Source: Dryocola sp. LX212 (lineage in GTDB: Bacteria > Pseudomonadota > Gammaproteobacteria > Enterobacterales > Enterobacteriaceae). From it: a stretch of 64,000 nt of DNA. The position numbers and the translations under genes were made by a program. This document shows positions 53,086 through 57,518 of this stretch, piece by piece. The notes beneath the pieces were generated by a model. The model searched no databases, had not been told where the DNA came from, and saw only the letters and a program-made list of their open reading frames with translations. The stretch covers positions 3,534,001-3,598,000 of the forward strand of contig CP167917.1 of NCBI GenBank assembly GCA_041504365.1. The letters run 5' to 3'. Position 1 is the stretch's first letter. Each line of letters begins with the position of its first letter.

Positions 53086-53105
53086 TACTGTATGGTCATA
53101 CAGTA
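53086..53105 (-). promoter_or_regulatory. LexA (SOS) box of recA
   Basis: TACTGTATGGTCATACAGTA is a near-perfect LexA operator (CTGT-N8-ACAG), located 73 bases before the recA start. It overlaps the last codons and the stop of pncC (53096), so the operator is partly coding sequence. Confidence 0.95.
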
Positions 53106-53605
53106 TCAAGCTTATTTTTTAGAAATTCATCCCACAGGGTTTGCAGAGCATATTCCGTGGCCTTACGCCGTACCGCATCCCGGTCACCGTCAAAAAGCTG
53201 CTGCCGGGCAAGGGTGCCATCCTGCTTTGAGGCGAAGCCAAACCACACAGTACCTACCGGTTTTTCATCGCTCCCTCCGTTGGGACCGGCGATGCCGCTG
53301 ACGGAAATCGCGTAGTCTGCTCCGGCTGCATAAAGCGCGCCCTGAGCCATTTCACGAACCACGGCTTCACTGACCGCGCCATGCGTTTCAAGCGTGCAGC
53401 TGTCAACGCCGATCATTTGATGTTTAGCCTCGTTGCTGTATGTCACAAAGCCGCGTTCAAACCAGGCCGAACTTCCCGAGACATCCGTGATGATCTTGGC
53501 TATCCATCCGCCGGTACAGGATTCTGCGGTGGTTACGGTAGCCCCCAGCGGGCCTAAAACCTCACCAAGTTGATGGCTTAGTTGTCGCAATGTTTTATCC
53601 GTCAT
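53096..53605 (-). CDS. pncC: PncC, nicotinamide-nucleotide amidohydrolase
   Basis: The start at 53605 gives MTDKTLRQLSHQLGEVLGPL, as in E. coli PncC (165 residues); this one has 169. The catalytic region is TTAESCTGGWIAKIITDVSG and FVTYSNEAKHQMIG, and SISGIAGPNGG-like VSGIAGPNGGSDEKPVGTVW closes the site. It converts nicotinamide mononucleotide to nicotinate mononucleotide in pyridine nucleotide salvage. It ends KNKLDTV with TGA inside the recA LexA box, so read-through transcription into recA is easy. Confidence 0.95.
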   Translation of the reverse strand: MTDKTLRQLSHQLGEVLGPLGATVTTAESCTGGWIAKIITDVSGSSAWFERGFVTYSNEAKHQMIGVDSCTLETHGAVSEAVVREMAQGALYAAGADYAISVSGIAGPNGGSDEKPVGTVWFGFASKQDGTLARQQLFDGDRDAVRRKATEYALQTLWDEFLKNKLDTV

Positions 53606-53703
53606 AGCTGCTCCGATTGTAGTCATGTCGTTTATTACCAGGGTAGCATTTTACGGCGCTTTCAGAAGATTACATCATGAAGCTAGAGGACGATTCCAGA
53701 AAT

Positions 53704-53734: not shown

Positions 53735-54613
53735 TTATTTCATGCTGCTGGCAATGGTTTCGACGTTATGTTTGAACGCCATTTCATAGGTCGCAGCCGG
53801 GCCGTCTGCGGCAGATAACGCTTCAGGATAAAGCTCCCCGCCCGGCTTCGCCCCGCTGGCAGCGGCGATCTGCTGCACCAGGCGCGGATCGGTTTGATTC
53901 TCGATAAAATAGGTTTTGATGTGCTGCACCTTGAGCTGCTTAATTAACGCGGCCACGTCACTGGCGCTGGCTTGAGCTTCCGTAGAGATACCCACCGGGG
54001 CAAGGAACGTTACCCCATACGCCTTACCAAAGTAGCCAAACGCATCGTGGCTGGTCAGCACATGGCGGCGGGCCTTTGGGATAGCTTCAAAGCGCGTTTT
54101 CGCCCAGCTGTCCAGCAGCTTCAGACGCGTAATGTAATCCTCACCCCCCTGACGAATCTCCGGCGCGTCCTGTGGGTCGGCAGCAATCAGCGCCTGCAAA
54201 ATGTTGCTGGCGTAAATCGATCCGTTTTCCGCACTGTTCCAGGCGTGCGGATCGGTGATAGTTTTCCCGTCTTCTTCCATGCTGCGGGTATCCACTCCCT
54301 GAGAAGCAACAACAATTTTGCCTTTATAGCCCGATGCGTTCACCAGCCTGTCCATCCACCCTTCCATGCCCAGACCGCTGACGATCACGACATCCGCATG
54401 GCTCAGCGCCACGCTGTCTTTCGGGGACGGCTCAAAGCTGTGCGGGTCGCCGTCAGGCCCGACAAGGCTCGTCACTTTCACATGCTTGCCCCCCACCTGC
54501 TTTGCCATATCCGCCAGTACGGTAAAACTGGTTACGACGTTTATTTCTTTCGCCATTGCCGTCTGGCCTGAAATCGCCACGGCTAACGTTAATGCCATCC
54601 CAAAACGTTTCAT
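53735..54613 (-). CDS. Metal (probably Zn) ABC transporter binding protein, AztC/SitA-like
   Basis: The 292-residue product has a signal peptide (MKRFGMALTLAVAISGQTAM, AKE) and the cluster A-I metal-binding-protein fold: metal ligands are likely the histidines in GDPHSFEPSP, DPHAWNSAENG and TSHDAFGYFGKAYG, plus a C-terminal acidic residue (ENQTDPRL region). It lacks the His/Asp-rich loop that ZnuA carries between the first two ligands, as in AztC and SitA. The Zur box before the operon favours zinc as the substrate. The start overlaps the permease stop by four bases (ATGA). Confidence 0.82.
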   Translation of the reverse strand: MKRFGMALTLAVAISGQTAMAKEINVVTSFTVLADMAKQVGGKHVKVTSLVGPDGDPHSFEPSPKDSVALSHADVVIVSGLGMEGWMDRLVNASGYKGKIVVASQGVDTRSMEEDGKTITDPHAWNSAENGSIYASNILQALIAADPQDAPEIRQGGEDYITRLKLLDSWAKTRFEAIPKARRHVLTSHDAFGYFGKAYGVTFLAPVGISTEAQASASDVAALIKQLKVQHIKTYFIENQTDPRLVQQIAAASGAKPGGELYPEALSAADGPAATYEMAFKHNVETIASSMK

Positions 54614-55494
54614 TTAATCCCCTTGCTGATTGTTAACCCATTCCGGAAGAAGCTCCGAAGTAGCCCACTGCGTGGCCCGAAAAGAAGAGACAGAACGAAT
54701 GCGCCGCTGGCGGTCAGTACGATGGCAGGCCCGGCAGGCAGCGAGGCGCTGAATGACCAGGCCAGACCTAGCCAGGCACAGCACAGACCGCAAAGCACCG
54801 CAATAGCTATTGAGCCCGCCAGCGTTTTCGCCCAGCAGCGGGCGGCAACGGCGGGAAGCATCATCAACCCGACGGACATTAAGGTGCCGAGTATCTGAAA
54901 GCCAGCCACCAGGTTAAGCACCAGCAGCGCCAGAAAAACACCGTGCAATAGATGAGGAATCAGACGCCCGTTGACCCGCAGAAACGCCCGGTCAAACGTC
55001 TCCATGACAAGGCCGCGATAAATCAACGCCAGCAGGATCAGGGTCACGCTGGCAATAATGCCGACAAATATTGTCGCCCCACCATCAACGGCAAGGATGG
55101 AACCGAATAATAGATGAAGCAGGTCGACGCTCGAACCACGCAGGGAAATCAGCGTGACGCCAAGAGCCAGAGAGCCCAGGTAAAAACCGGCGAAGCTGGC
55201 ATCTTCTTTAAGATTCGTGCGGGCGCTTACCAACCCGGAAATTAACGCCACCACTACTCCGGCAATAAAGCCGCCAATACCCATCGCCACCAGCGACATG
55301 CCCGCAAGCAGATACCCCACGGCAACCCCCGGCAAAATCGCGTGGGATAACGCATCCCCCACCAGGCTCATCCGGCGCAGCAGCAGGAGAATCCCCAGCG
55401 GGGCCGTGCTTAGTGATAGAGCCAGACAGGCAACCAGCGCCCGGCGCATAAAGCCGTAGTCAATAAACGGCTCAATTAAAAATTGATAGATCAT
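54610..55494 (-). CDS. Metal (probably Zn) ABC transporter permease, AztB/SitC-like
   Basis: The 294-residue product has about eight membrane helices and the family mark LRRMSLVGDALSHAILPGVA near residues 40 to 60, typical of ZnuB, MntB, SitC and AztB. It forms the channel for the metal delivered by the binding protein. Its start overlaps the ATPase stop by four bases and its end overlaps the binding-protein start by four, so all four genes of the operon are coupled. Confidence 0.85.
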   Translation of the reverse strand: MIYQFLIEPFIDYGFMRRALVACLALSLSTAPLGILLLLRRMSLVGDALSHAILPGVAVGYLLAGMSLVAMGIGGFIAGVVVALISGLVSARTNLKEDASFAGFYLGSLALGVTLISLRGSSVDLLHLLFGSILAVDGGATIFVGIIASVTLILLALIYRGLVMETFDRAFLRVNGRLIPHLLHGVFLALLVLNLVAGFQILGTLMSVGLMMLPAVAARCWAKTLAGSIAIAVLCGLCCAWLGLAWSFSASLPAGPAIVLTASGAFVLSLLFGPRSGLLRSFFRNGLTISKGIK

Positions 55495-56186
55495 ACAGAT
55501 AGCGCCAGATGAGAGCCTGATGACAGGTAACCAGGTAAAACTTGTGACGTTGCTCCCCAGTGCGTGGTTTGCAGGCCAAGCAGCAGAACATCCGGGAAAA
55601 AACGCTCTACGAGTTCGTTATCATGCAGCACGGTGATCACCGTCTGCCCCTCCTCGTGCATCTGCCGAATAAGCGTCATCAGGAAGTTTGTGGTCTGCAC
55701 GTCAATACCGGTGAACGGCTCATCGAGCAGCACCAGCGGCGCGTTCTGGACAAGCAGGCGAGCAAAGAGCATGCGCTGATATTGGCCGCCGGACAGGGTT
55801 TCAATGGGCTGTTTCGCCATCAAGCTCAGCCCAACGCGCTCTATTGCCTCCGCCACCCGTTGCCTGCACCGACGGTTAAGGCCGGAAAAAATGCTCCGCG
55901 CGGGCCAGCTTCCCATGCTCACCACGTCGTAAACTGTCGTCGGGAACTGGCGATCCATCTCGGCAAGCTGCGGCAGCCAGGCTACGCGTGGCATGGCACC
56001 TCGGCTGTAAACGACCTTCCCAGAGACGGGAGCCTGAAGCCGAATCAGGGTTTTAAGCAGCGTCGATTTTCCCGTGCCGTTCGCGCCGATCACCGCCGTC
56101 ATGCTGCCCGCGTGAAAGGTACCGGATAGCGCGGGAGCGACCGCCCTACCCTGATAGCCCGGCACAACCCGTTCAAGTTCGATCAT
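55491..56186 (-). CDS. Metal (probably Zn) ABC transporter ATPase, AztA-like
   Basis: The start at 56186 gives MIELERVVPGYQGRAVAPAL and sits in an ATGA with the stop of the small upstream gene. The 231-residue product has Walker A GANGTGKSTLLKTL, signature LSGGQYQRMLFARLLV and Walker B LVLLDEPFTGIDV. It drives the importer. The longer frame from 56228 would run through the 39-codon gene in another frame and is rejected. The AztA-like name is an inference from gene order ATPase-permease-binding protein and from size. Confidence 0.85.
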   Translation of the reverse strand: MIELERVVPGYQGRAVAPALSGTFHAGSMTAVIGANGTGKSTLLKTLIRLQAPVSGKVVYSRGAMPRVAWLPQLAEMDRQFPTTVYDVVSMGSWPARSIFSGLNRRCRQRVAEAIERVGLSLMAKQPIETLSGGQYQRMLFARLLVQNAPLVLLDEPFTGIDVQTTNFLMTLIRQMHEEGQTVITVLHDNELVERFFPDVLLLGLQTTHWGATSQVLPGYLSSGSHLALSV

Positions 56187-56302
56187 GGCAGCGCTACCGC
56201 CCATAAAACGGCCAGCCAAAGACAGCACAGCACGATGAGGATCCCCCCGATACGTAGCAGTGCGGAGGCAGAGAAAAGCGTTGAGGGGTGGGGTAAATCC
56301 AT
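56183..56302 (-). CDS. 39-residue membrane peptide, first gene of the Zur-box operon
   Basis: A 39-codon frame begins with ATG at 56302: the product begins MDLPHPSTLFSASALLRIGG and ends with a hydrophobic stretch (ILIVLCCLWLAVLWAVALP), that is, one membrane helix with two adjacent cysteines. Its stop forms ATGA with the ATPase start, the same four-base overlap used by the other genes in the operon, and the frame lies between the Zur box (about 22 bases upstream) and the transporter genes. The ribosome binding site is weak (GAGTATGCTGCC). I do not recognise the peptide. It is too short for most gene finders. The overlap pattern makes it likely to be translated. Confidence 0.55.
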   Translation of the reverse strand: MDLPHPSTLFSASALLRIGGILIVLCCLWLAVLWAVALP

Positions 56303-56323
56303 GGCAGCATACTCAAATTGATT

Positions 56324-56338
56324 TGTTATAACATAACA
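56324..56338. promoter_or_regulatory. Zur box
   Basis: TGTTATAACATAACA matches the Zur consensus core TGTTATAnTATAACA at all but one position. It lies just upstream of the operon start on the minus strand. Zur with zinc represses high-affinity zinc uptake, so the operon is expected to be on when zinc is low. Confidence 0.8.
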
Positions 56339-56441: not shown

Positions 56442-57518
56442 TTACTGAACGCGCGCCAGCGCAACCGCCTGGCCAAGCTGCCAGACTGCCATCGCGTAGT
56501 GCGTGCTGTGGTTATAGCGGGTGATGGTGTAGAAGTTCGGCATGCCGTACCAGTACTGATAGCGGTCGCCCATATCCAGGCGCAGAAGGCTGGCTTCCTG
56601 ATGGTCACCCAGCGAACTCTGCGGCGTCAGGCCTGACTGCTGCAACGCAGAGACGGAGTATTTGGTTTTGAAGCCATCCGCCAGGCCCGGCACCTGCCCG
56701 TTTGCCGGTACCGCAACCAGATCGCCCTTCACCCAGCCGTGGCCTTTAAAGTAGTTCGCCACGCTGCCGATGGCATCTTCCGGATCCCACAGATTAACGT
56801 GGCCGTCGCCGTTAAAATCAACCGCATACTCTTTGAAAGAAGAAGGCATAAACTGGCCATAGCCCATAGCGCCCGCGAAGGAACCTTTCAGCGTCAGCGG
56901 GTCATCCCCTTCGTTACGCGCCATGATCAGGAAGGTTTCCAGTTCGCTTGCAAAGTACTGCGCACGGCGCGGATACGCGAAGGCCAGAGTAGACAACGCA
57001 TCAATAATGCGGGTTTTACCCATCACGCGGCCCCAGCGGGTTTCTACACCGATAATTCCGACGATGATCTCAGGCGGCACGCCGTAGACCTGGAAAGCGC
57101 GCTTGAGCGCATCATCATATTGGTTCCAGAAAACCACGCCGTTTTGCACGTTATCAGGCGTGATAAATTTGCCCCGGTAGCGCAGCCATGCACCGTTCGG
57201 GCCCGCAGGTGGTGCAGTAGTCGGCGCCTGCCGATCCATAAGGCGCAGCACGTAATTTAGCTTTTTGGTCTGCGAAAAGACTTCATGCAGCTGCTGACGG
57301 TCGAAACCATGCTCGCTGACCATCTTGTCGATAAATTTTTCGGCTTCCGGGTTGTAGGCAAAATCCCCGGTTTGCATAAAGACATCATGCTGCGGCTGCA
57401 GCAGGAAGCCTCCGGATGGCTTACCAGCCGTCGGCTGGGTCTGCGCCTCAGTTTTTGGCTTGCTACTACAAGCGCTGAGTAAAACAAGAAGCGGGAGGAG
57501 TGCTGCTGAATAACGCAT
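56442..57518 (-). CDS. mltB: MltB, membrane-bound lytic transglycosylase B
   Basis: The 358-residue product is a lipoprotein: MRYSAALLPLLVLLSACSSK with lipobox LSAC (cysteine 17). The catalytic domain has VPPEIIVGIIGVETRWGRVM with the catalytic glutamate and SFAGAMGYGQFMPSSFKEYA, DFNGDGHVNLWDPEDAIGSV. It cleaves the glycan strands of peptidoglycan to 1,6-anhydromuramoyl ends. Length is close to E. coli (361). In E. coli the srl operon follows; here the metal ABC operon lies to the left and mutS is divergent to the right. Confidence 0.96.
   Translation of the reverse strand: MRYSAALLPLLVLLSACSSKPKTEAQTQPTAGKPSGGFLLQPQHDVFMQTGDFAYNPEAEKFIDKMVSEHGFDRQQLHEVFSQTKKLNYVLRLMDRQAPTTAPPAGPNGAWLRYRGKFITPDNVQNGVVFWNQYDDALKRAFQVYGVPPEIIVGIIGVETRWGRVMGKTRIIDALSTLAFAYPRRAQYFASELETFLIMARNEGDDPLTLKGSFAGAMGYGQFMPSSFKEYAVDFNGDGHVNLWDPEDAIGSVANYFKGHGWVKGDLVAVPANGQVPGLADGFKTKYSVSALQQSGLTPQSSLGDHQEASLLRLDMGDRYQYWYGMPNFYTITRYNHSTHYAMAVWQLGQAVALARVQ

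Follow-up and report, generated by a model that had tools for sequence, protein, structure and literature searches.

A conserved single-helix membrane peptide encoded at the head of ZniCBA-type zinc importer operons, probably an overlooked fourth part of the importer

What is a frame of only 39 codons doing at the head of a zinc importer operon? The question is raised by a locus of Dryocola sp. LX212 (assembly GCA_041504365.1, contig CP167917.1, positions 3,534,001 to 3,598,000), a stretch of 64,000 nucleotides which is called the window below, where a short frame for a membrane peptide lies between a Zur-type box and the ATPase gene of an ATP-binding cassette (ABC) importer. A first-pass annotation, made from the sequence of the window, had pointed out this frame, and its presence, its place and its ATGA overlap with the ATPase gene are confirmed; on the minus strand it runs from 56302 to 56183. 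The four ATGA overlaps counted at that time are three, that is, all three junctions between the four genes of the operon are of this type. The reading preferred here, with a probability of about 0.6, is that the peptide would be a structural or activity-supporting small membrane subunit of the Zni-type importer, whose Arg/Trp helix packs on the permease and aids assembly or turnover; in other words, the importer probably has a small overlooked fourth part.

A frame of this length is no evidence by itself, because open reading frames of such size are common: 79 of at least 30 residues are found in 8.5 kb. This one stands above chance because it is conserved in relatives, selected as a protein and absent in controls. 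A search with the single sequence found the peptide in 9 of 60 genomes, its own genome counted. With a profile of 12 rows it was found in 100 of 294 genomes of the window's family, 124 of which gave a match to the ATPase (expectation value, E, 1e-40), and 100 of the 101 peptide matches in these 294 genomes stood upstream of the ATPase gene on the same strand at a distance of 60 nt or less, 94 of them at the identical offset. Counted by distinct operons, which means operons with different ATPase sequences, the peptide was present in 120 of 137 with the first profile (12 seeds) and in 126 of 137 with the second (E 0.01); lack of the frame in relatives with the same operon had been named beforehand as the outcome that would speak against it, and the frame withstands this test. 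In the merged set (E 0.03) there are 285 distinct operons, among which one species may recur; 259 of them have a peptide-type frame ahead of the ATPase, and they extend from Enterobacterales out to Pseudomonas, Neisseria and the Alphaproteobacteria. At the same threshold the peptide was found in 273 of 301 real leaders, in 0 of 301 shuffled leaders and at 0 of 301 permease starts on the same strand; the second-round profiles were built partly from the sequences scored, so that the later counts including the 273 lean upward, while the zeros of the controls are unaffected.

The frame is real and under selection at the protein level. Among 103 peptides aligned at their right ends, the Arg at position -23 from the stop is kept in 102 although seven codons are used in this column, and the Ser at -27 is kept in 93 with ten codons. 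The Trp at -11 is present in 96, the Trp at -6 in 102 and the Leu at -2 in all 103, and in this alignment third codon positions have the highest mean entropy and second positions the lowest. The ratio of nonsynonymous to synonymous substitution rates (dN/dS) was estimated from pairwise counts over 29 codons without the last four, with 29 to 73 non-independent pairs in each of four divergence windows. It is 0.15-0.19 for the reading frame itself, whereas frame +1 gives about 0.95-1.05 and frame +2 gives 1.7-2.0; one antisense frame, which mirrors third positions, gives 0.30-0.34. The pN/pS ratio is 0.19-0.25 for the reading frame and 0.95-1.9 for the other two on this strand. Because dN/dS is low, third positions are the most variable and the Arg and Trp columns are nearly invariant, selection is taken to act on the peptide as a protein and not on a signal alone.

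These data bear directly on the idea that the frame is a leader, whose translation only delivers ribosomes to the ATPase start by coupling, or stalls them, and whose product is inert. Such a leader would agree with the ATGA end of the frame in 121 of 126 operons of the window's family, with the C-terminal LP that 90 of 126 have ahead of the stop, and with the rarity of a purine-rich core (AGGA, GGAG or GAGG) before the ATPase, which occurs in 2 of 126 operons versus 31 of 126 before the peptide start. However, the low dN/dS was obtained across 29 codons from which the last four had been excluded, and the Arg column, near-invariant as a residue and varied in codon, lies 23 codons before the stop; the constraint is not confined to a stalling end or to the signal that starts the gene which follows. 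The ending itself varies (LP 90, LA 17, others 19), and Pro-stop stalling is not supported as a general mechanism. There is no room for a leader attenuator, the two frames overlapping by 4 nt in the window. In addition, the ATPase start pairs better than the peptide start with the anti-Shine-Dalgarno sequence (median dG -6.2 and -3.8 in 126 operons, crude figures), so coupling is possibly unneeded. Peptide frame and ATPase start stand at the window's offset in 201 of 259 operons, and a gap replaces the overlap in 46 of 259, a number which depends on the ATPase start chosen. The peptide also persists where the overlap has been lost, as in three reduced genomes (L130, L136 and L148). An inert leader is on this balance quite improbable. 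At another locus (L110), near-identical 15-base units (ATGATCGCACCACAT) are repeated between peptide and ATPase and yield several in-frame ATG codons.

The subunit reading, on the other hand, is preferred because the peptide is tied to the importer, is selected as a protein, is kept in reduced genomes and survives the loss of the overlap. Among genomes of the window's family of 1.4 Mb or less which have the ATPase, 11 of 12 keep the peptide, and a working part fits this retention better than fine tuning does. The peptide also shares several properties with known small single-pass subunits: fewer than 50 residues in the window's case (some relatives with His tails are longer), one membrane helix, a gene inside the operon of the complex, conservation as a protein and inheritance together with the large subunits. 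AlphaFold predicts a helix over residues 7-37 (mean predicted local distance difference test, pLDDT, 84.7; predicted template modelling score 0.46), and the most conserved residues are Arg17, Trp34 and Leu38. Lys and Arg are in excess on the N side in 158 of 197 peptides and on the C side in 5, the remainder being ties, so the N-terminus is probably in the cytosol and the C-terminus at the periplasmic face. In the mechanism proposed, the peptide would be made together with the Zni-type importer when Zur leaves the box, would enter the inner membrane as a single-pass protein in that orientation and would pack on the permease with its R-x11-W-x4-W helix, while the short tail before the helix would lie near the cytosolic exit or the ATPase.

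What the peptide does with zinc, if anything, is a separate matter. The first-pass annotation had described a small membrane protein encoded behind a Zur box and in one operon with a zinc importer, and this part holds, the protein being conserved; the cysteine pair of VLCCLW as a conserved metal site does not hold, since both cysteines occur in 1 of 117 peptides aligned from the C-terminus, namely the window's own. The best hint of zinc sensing comes instead from the His-rich N-terminal tails of other lineages, and not from the window's peptide. Of the 70 members that do not belong to the window's family, 22 have tails with 4-18 His, for example MVPAASHAHRHDHAHSHSHAHGHGHDHTHAHVHY (L256) and MSEHTHRHNKEGPCHF (L238), which suggests zinc binding there; where present, such tails probably bind zinc in addition to the role of the helix. 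Long His-rich tails, with up to 18 His and likely metal-binding, are carried by L206, L230, L238, L253, L255-L257 and L273-L276.

From these tails a zinc-responsive brake or a hand-off tail can be imagined: the permease-bound peptide would bind exiting zinc with its tail, which the charge pattern places in the cytosol, and would either trans-inhibit transport or pass the zinc on. But only 0-3 His are found in the tails of 127 members of the window's family, the window included, and fewer than 4 in 48 of the 70 members outside it, the start codons of the tails having been set by rule and not mapped; the cysteine pair, unique to the window's peptide, does not help either. Furthermore, regulation is usually lost in strongly reduced genomes, and the peptide is kept in them. 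A brake or hand-off as its function is thus unlikely. A wider proposal joins tail and subunit, namely that throughout Pseudomonadota the Zni-type importers would contain a fourth subunit so far missed, among the first small single-helix subunits of metal-uptake ABC importers, whose cytosolic tail, His-rich in many lineages, would receive or sense the imported zinc and set the rate of the importer within the complex; this can be put forward tentatively, at clearly less than even odds.

The peptide could also be a separate zinc-starvation membrane peptide, which shares the operon and has a different target. In its favour, the tie between peptide and permease is drawn from sequence comparison. 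Against it, the peptide is almost never away from the ATPase: to the 100 of 101 matches above are added 57 of 58 in a sample of 348 genomes drawn from the phylum. Moreover, the presence of the peptide follows the permease tree. On a FastTree tree built from 220 permeases, 4 changes suffice to explain where the peptide is present, versus a mean of 24 with shuffled labels. A separate target is consequently very improbable, the least probable of the explanations considered here.

Several points nevertheless weigh against a subunit. Twenty-six of the 285 operons lack the peptide, among them the operon of the reduced genome of Ca. Ecksteinia adelgidicola (L353); the main clade without peptide contains the aztABC operon of Shinella, which has aztD. 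The existence of such operons means that related importers function without it. Shared descent may account for part of the clustering on the tree; near copies cluster anyway. In the window the predicted ribosome-binding site is weak at the peptide start (dG -2.2, on the same crude scale as the medians above) and stronger at the ATPase start (-6.6). Finally, the model of the permease is complete without the peptide: built from 28 rows (pLDDT 80.5), it matches PsaB (7kyp) almost from end to end, over 281 columns with a template modelling score of 0.75 and a root mean square deviation of 6.3. The peptide is therefore not a missing helix, and the candidate explanation that it is a split-off helix of the permease is not supported. 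By eye, the ends of 25 permeases from operons without peptide show no plain counterpart of it, and a few of these permeases are longer.

The operons without peptide are of several kinds. The main clade also holds Rhizobiaceae-like loci, an assignment which is a guess, and an enterobacterial paralogue. The latter is a second importer operon in enterobacteria with a Zur-type box and no peptide (L128, L135, L137-L139, L147, L150, L153 and L156), and genomes with both operons, e.g. G207 and G027, offer a natural comparison. Eight loci of one clade (L224, L225, L226, L228, L229, L233, L270 and L271) have permeases which end in HHRHRTA, as if a His tail sat on the permease where the peptide is missing. 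L285, with a binding-protein gene upstream, and its tree neighbour L286 resemble another operon type. AztD is at most a candidate counterpart of the peptide in the main clade; it was looked for by eye in the upstream parts of 15 of 25 loci without peptide. In Rhizobium leguminosarum, the relevant passages of PMC12183173 place a Zur motif 153 bp upstream of the first zni gene; this spacing would leave room for a peptide-type frame, yet nine loci of Rhizobiaceae-like genomes, a guessed assignment as above, are without it.

How do these results compare with known systems? The window's operon is assigned to the ZniCBA zinc importer as in Klebsiella pneumoniae, with zinc transport and zinc control predicted. 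It consists of an ATPase, an ABC-3 permease and a ZnuA-type binding protein in one unidirectional operon between mltB and pncC, the same three large genes and flanks as in K. pneumoniae, and ZniCBA is raised there under zinc limitation (PMC10797113, passages on the operon). The same passages describe zniCBA as three genes (EW045_RS05535, 05540 and 05545), and neither "small protein" nor "open reading frame" appears as a term in the main text of the paper (PMC10797113). The AztABCD system of Paracoccus denitrificans has a related ATPase, permease and binding protein and is Zur controlled (PMC5387054, PMC6689063, PMC7731109, in the passages on these genes). However, all three large proteins of the window score below the curated NCBIfam cut-offs of the AztA, AztB and AztC equivalogs, so the operon is filed as Zni-type and not as AztABC; in a further difference, which is taken from the Shinella and not the Paracoccus operon, aztABC with aztD has no peptide.

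The nearest precedent, by analogy, would be the CydX/CydY/CydZ set of cytochrome bd oxidase: single-helix small proteins with few conserved residues, encoded in the operon of a membrane complex, whose presence tracks a clade of the large subunit CydA and which are often missed in annotation (PMC4325964, in part). Unlike the window's peptide, they belong to another complex and are encoded last, not first, in the operon, and the peptide matches no Pfam family. Twenty-five peptide members gave 0 families in Pfam-A and NCBIfam at E 0.01, PHROGs and PADLOC lying outside the search, and 0 matches among PDB sequences at E 1. KdpF, AcrZ and similar proteins are small hydrophobic partners of transporters, like the peptide. 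To our knowledge, no partner of the KdpF/AcrZ type is known for a zinc or a cluster A-I ABC importer. The first-pass annotation knew of no described peptide in this place, and none came up: by title or abstract start no paper listed in the searches concerns a small peptide at this operon position (most subscription papers lie outside the search, hence this is no proof of absence), the passages searched in zinc-importer papers do not show it, and the terms zinc and ABC transporter were not met in a paper on small membrane proteins.

The peptide reaches far beyond the window's family. In the draw of the phylum its profile matched 58 of 348 genomes (ATPase, 86), and 45 of 46 matches outside the window's family stand before the ATPase; the one remaining match (L234) also stands before an ATPase, one weaker than the cut. 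Draws from the order and the class gave matches in 17 of 247 and 6 of 276 genomes, respectively, and all 10 matches outside the window's family stand before an ATPase. When plasmids were searched by tblastn with a single relative as query, 1 record came up (E 0.9), retained solely for its fitting position. Among the best 80 loci of named genomes found by permease, 77 have the peptide, 2 lack it and 1 shows no ATPase within its stretch; represented here are Klebsiella, Yersinia, Serratia, Enterobacter, Pantoea, Erwinia, Pseudomonas, Neisseria and Snodgrassella, as well as Rhizobium wuzhouense, Methylobacterium, Kushneria and Ca. Doolittlea endobia. The peptide is carried by the K. pneumoniae loci L013 and L308 and by Escherichia coli 536. 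It had been called unannotated, which is right for many gene tables, e.g. those of Enterobacter hormaechei, K. pneumoniae 176, E. coli 536 and Bartonella HY406 (plasmid tables being incomplete), but not for Klebsiella aerogenes NCTC10006 (VDZ62730.1), Thioclava (XBA80629.1) and Skermanella rosea (WP_203101353.1), whose records give it as a protein of unknown function.

ZniCBA and related systems have so far been treated as importers of three genes. If the product of the fourth gene belongs to the importer, then deletions, reconstitutions and structures from which the peptide was absent are possibly incomplete. The zinc-starvation set of many bacteria, among them Klebsiella, Yersinia, Serratia, Pseudomonas, Neisseria, rhizobia and insect symbionts, would gain a new protein family. 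The importer would also be a clean test case for the effect of single-helix partners on ABC importers, with the clade without peptide as a natural comparison.

The features of the locus are collected in Table 1. The pattern GTTATRNNATAAC is fitted once in the 64 kb, by the box (the match being reported on both strands; mean of shuffles 0.03). All 13 of 13 positions fit in 97 of 126 leaders of the window's family (best shuffled, 12) and in 33 of 70 leaders outside it (best shuffled, 10), and the median distance from box end to peptide start is 21 nt in the window's family. Because the box ends just before the peptide start, the peptide is read as the first frame of the presumed transcript.

Table 1. 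Features of the zinc importer locus in the window (positions counted from the first letter of the window)
Feature	Position	Strand	Remarks
39-residue single-helix membrane peptide, MDLPHPSTLFSASALLRIGGILIVLCCLWLAVLWAVALP	56183..56302	-	ATG, 39 codons, TGA; gene no. 1 of the operon
Arg17 codon	56252..56254	-	R in 102/103 right-aligned peptides; presumed cytosolic edge of helix
Trp29 codon, R-x11-W-x4-W signature	56216..56218	-	W in 96/103; R-x11-W in 222/259
Trp34 codon, R-x11-W-x4-W signature	56201..56203	-	W in 102/103; full R-x11-W-x4-W in 197/259
Zur-type box, GTTATGTTATAAC	56325..56337	.	22 nt between box end and peptide ATG
ABC ATPase, ZniC/AztA-like	55491..56186	-	ABC_tran 2.7e-25; AztA 200.6 bits (cut-off 220)
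ABC-3 permease, ZniB/AztB-like	54610..55494	-	ABC-3 4.4e-50; AztB 237 bits (cut-off 280)
Periplasmic metal-binding protein, ZniA/AztC-like	53735..54613	-	ZnuA family 3.3e-81; AztC 260.9 bits (cut-off 350)
ATGA overlap, peptide stop/ATPase start	56183..56186	-	ATGA end of frame in 121/126 window-family operons
ATGA overlap, ATPase/permease	55491-55494	-	
ATGA overlap, permease/binding protein	54610-54613	-	
mltB-like flanking gene	56442-57518		SLT_2 match
CinA/PncC-like flanking gene	53096-53626		

The nearest named relative of the window's permease is that of Dryocola boscaweniae (88%), followed by Buttiauxella, the window's own record possibly being excluded. Two records have names that do not agree well with their loci. 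Martelella alba is an alphaproteobacterial name, and the record of this name (L292) carries an enterobacterial-like operon, so that either its name or its assembly seems odd. A bin labelled Planctomycetota from a metagenome (L347) carries an operon with a peptide almost like those of alphaproteobacterial bins from the same site, and the operon is probably mis-binned.
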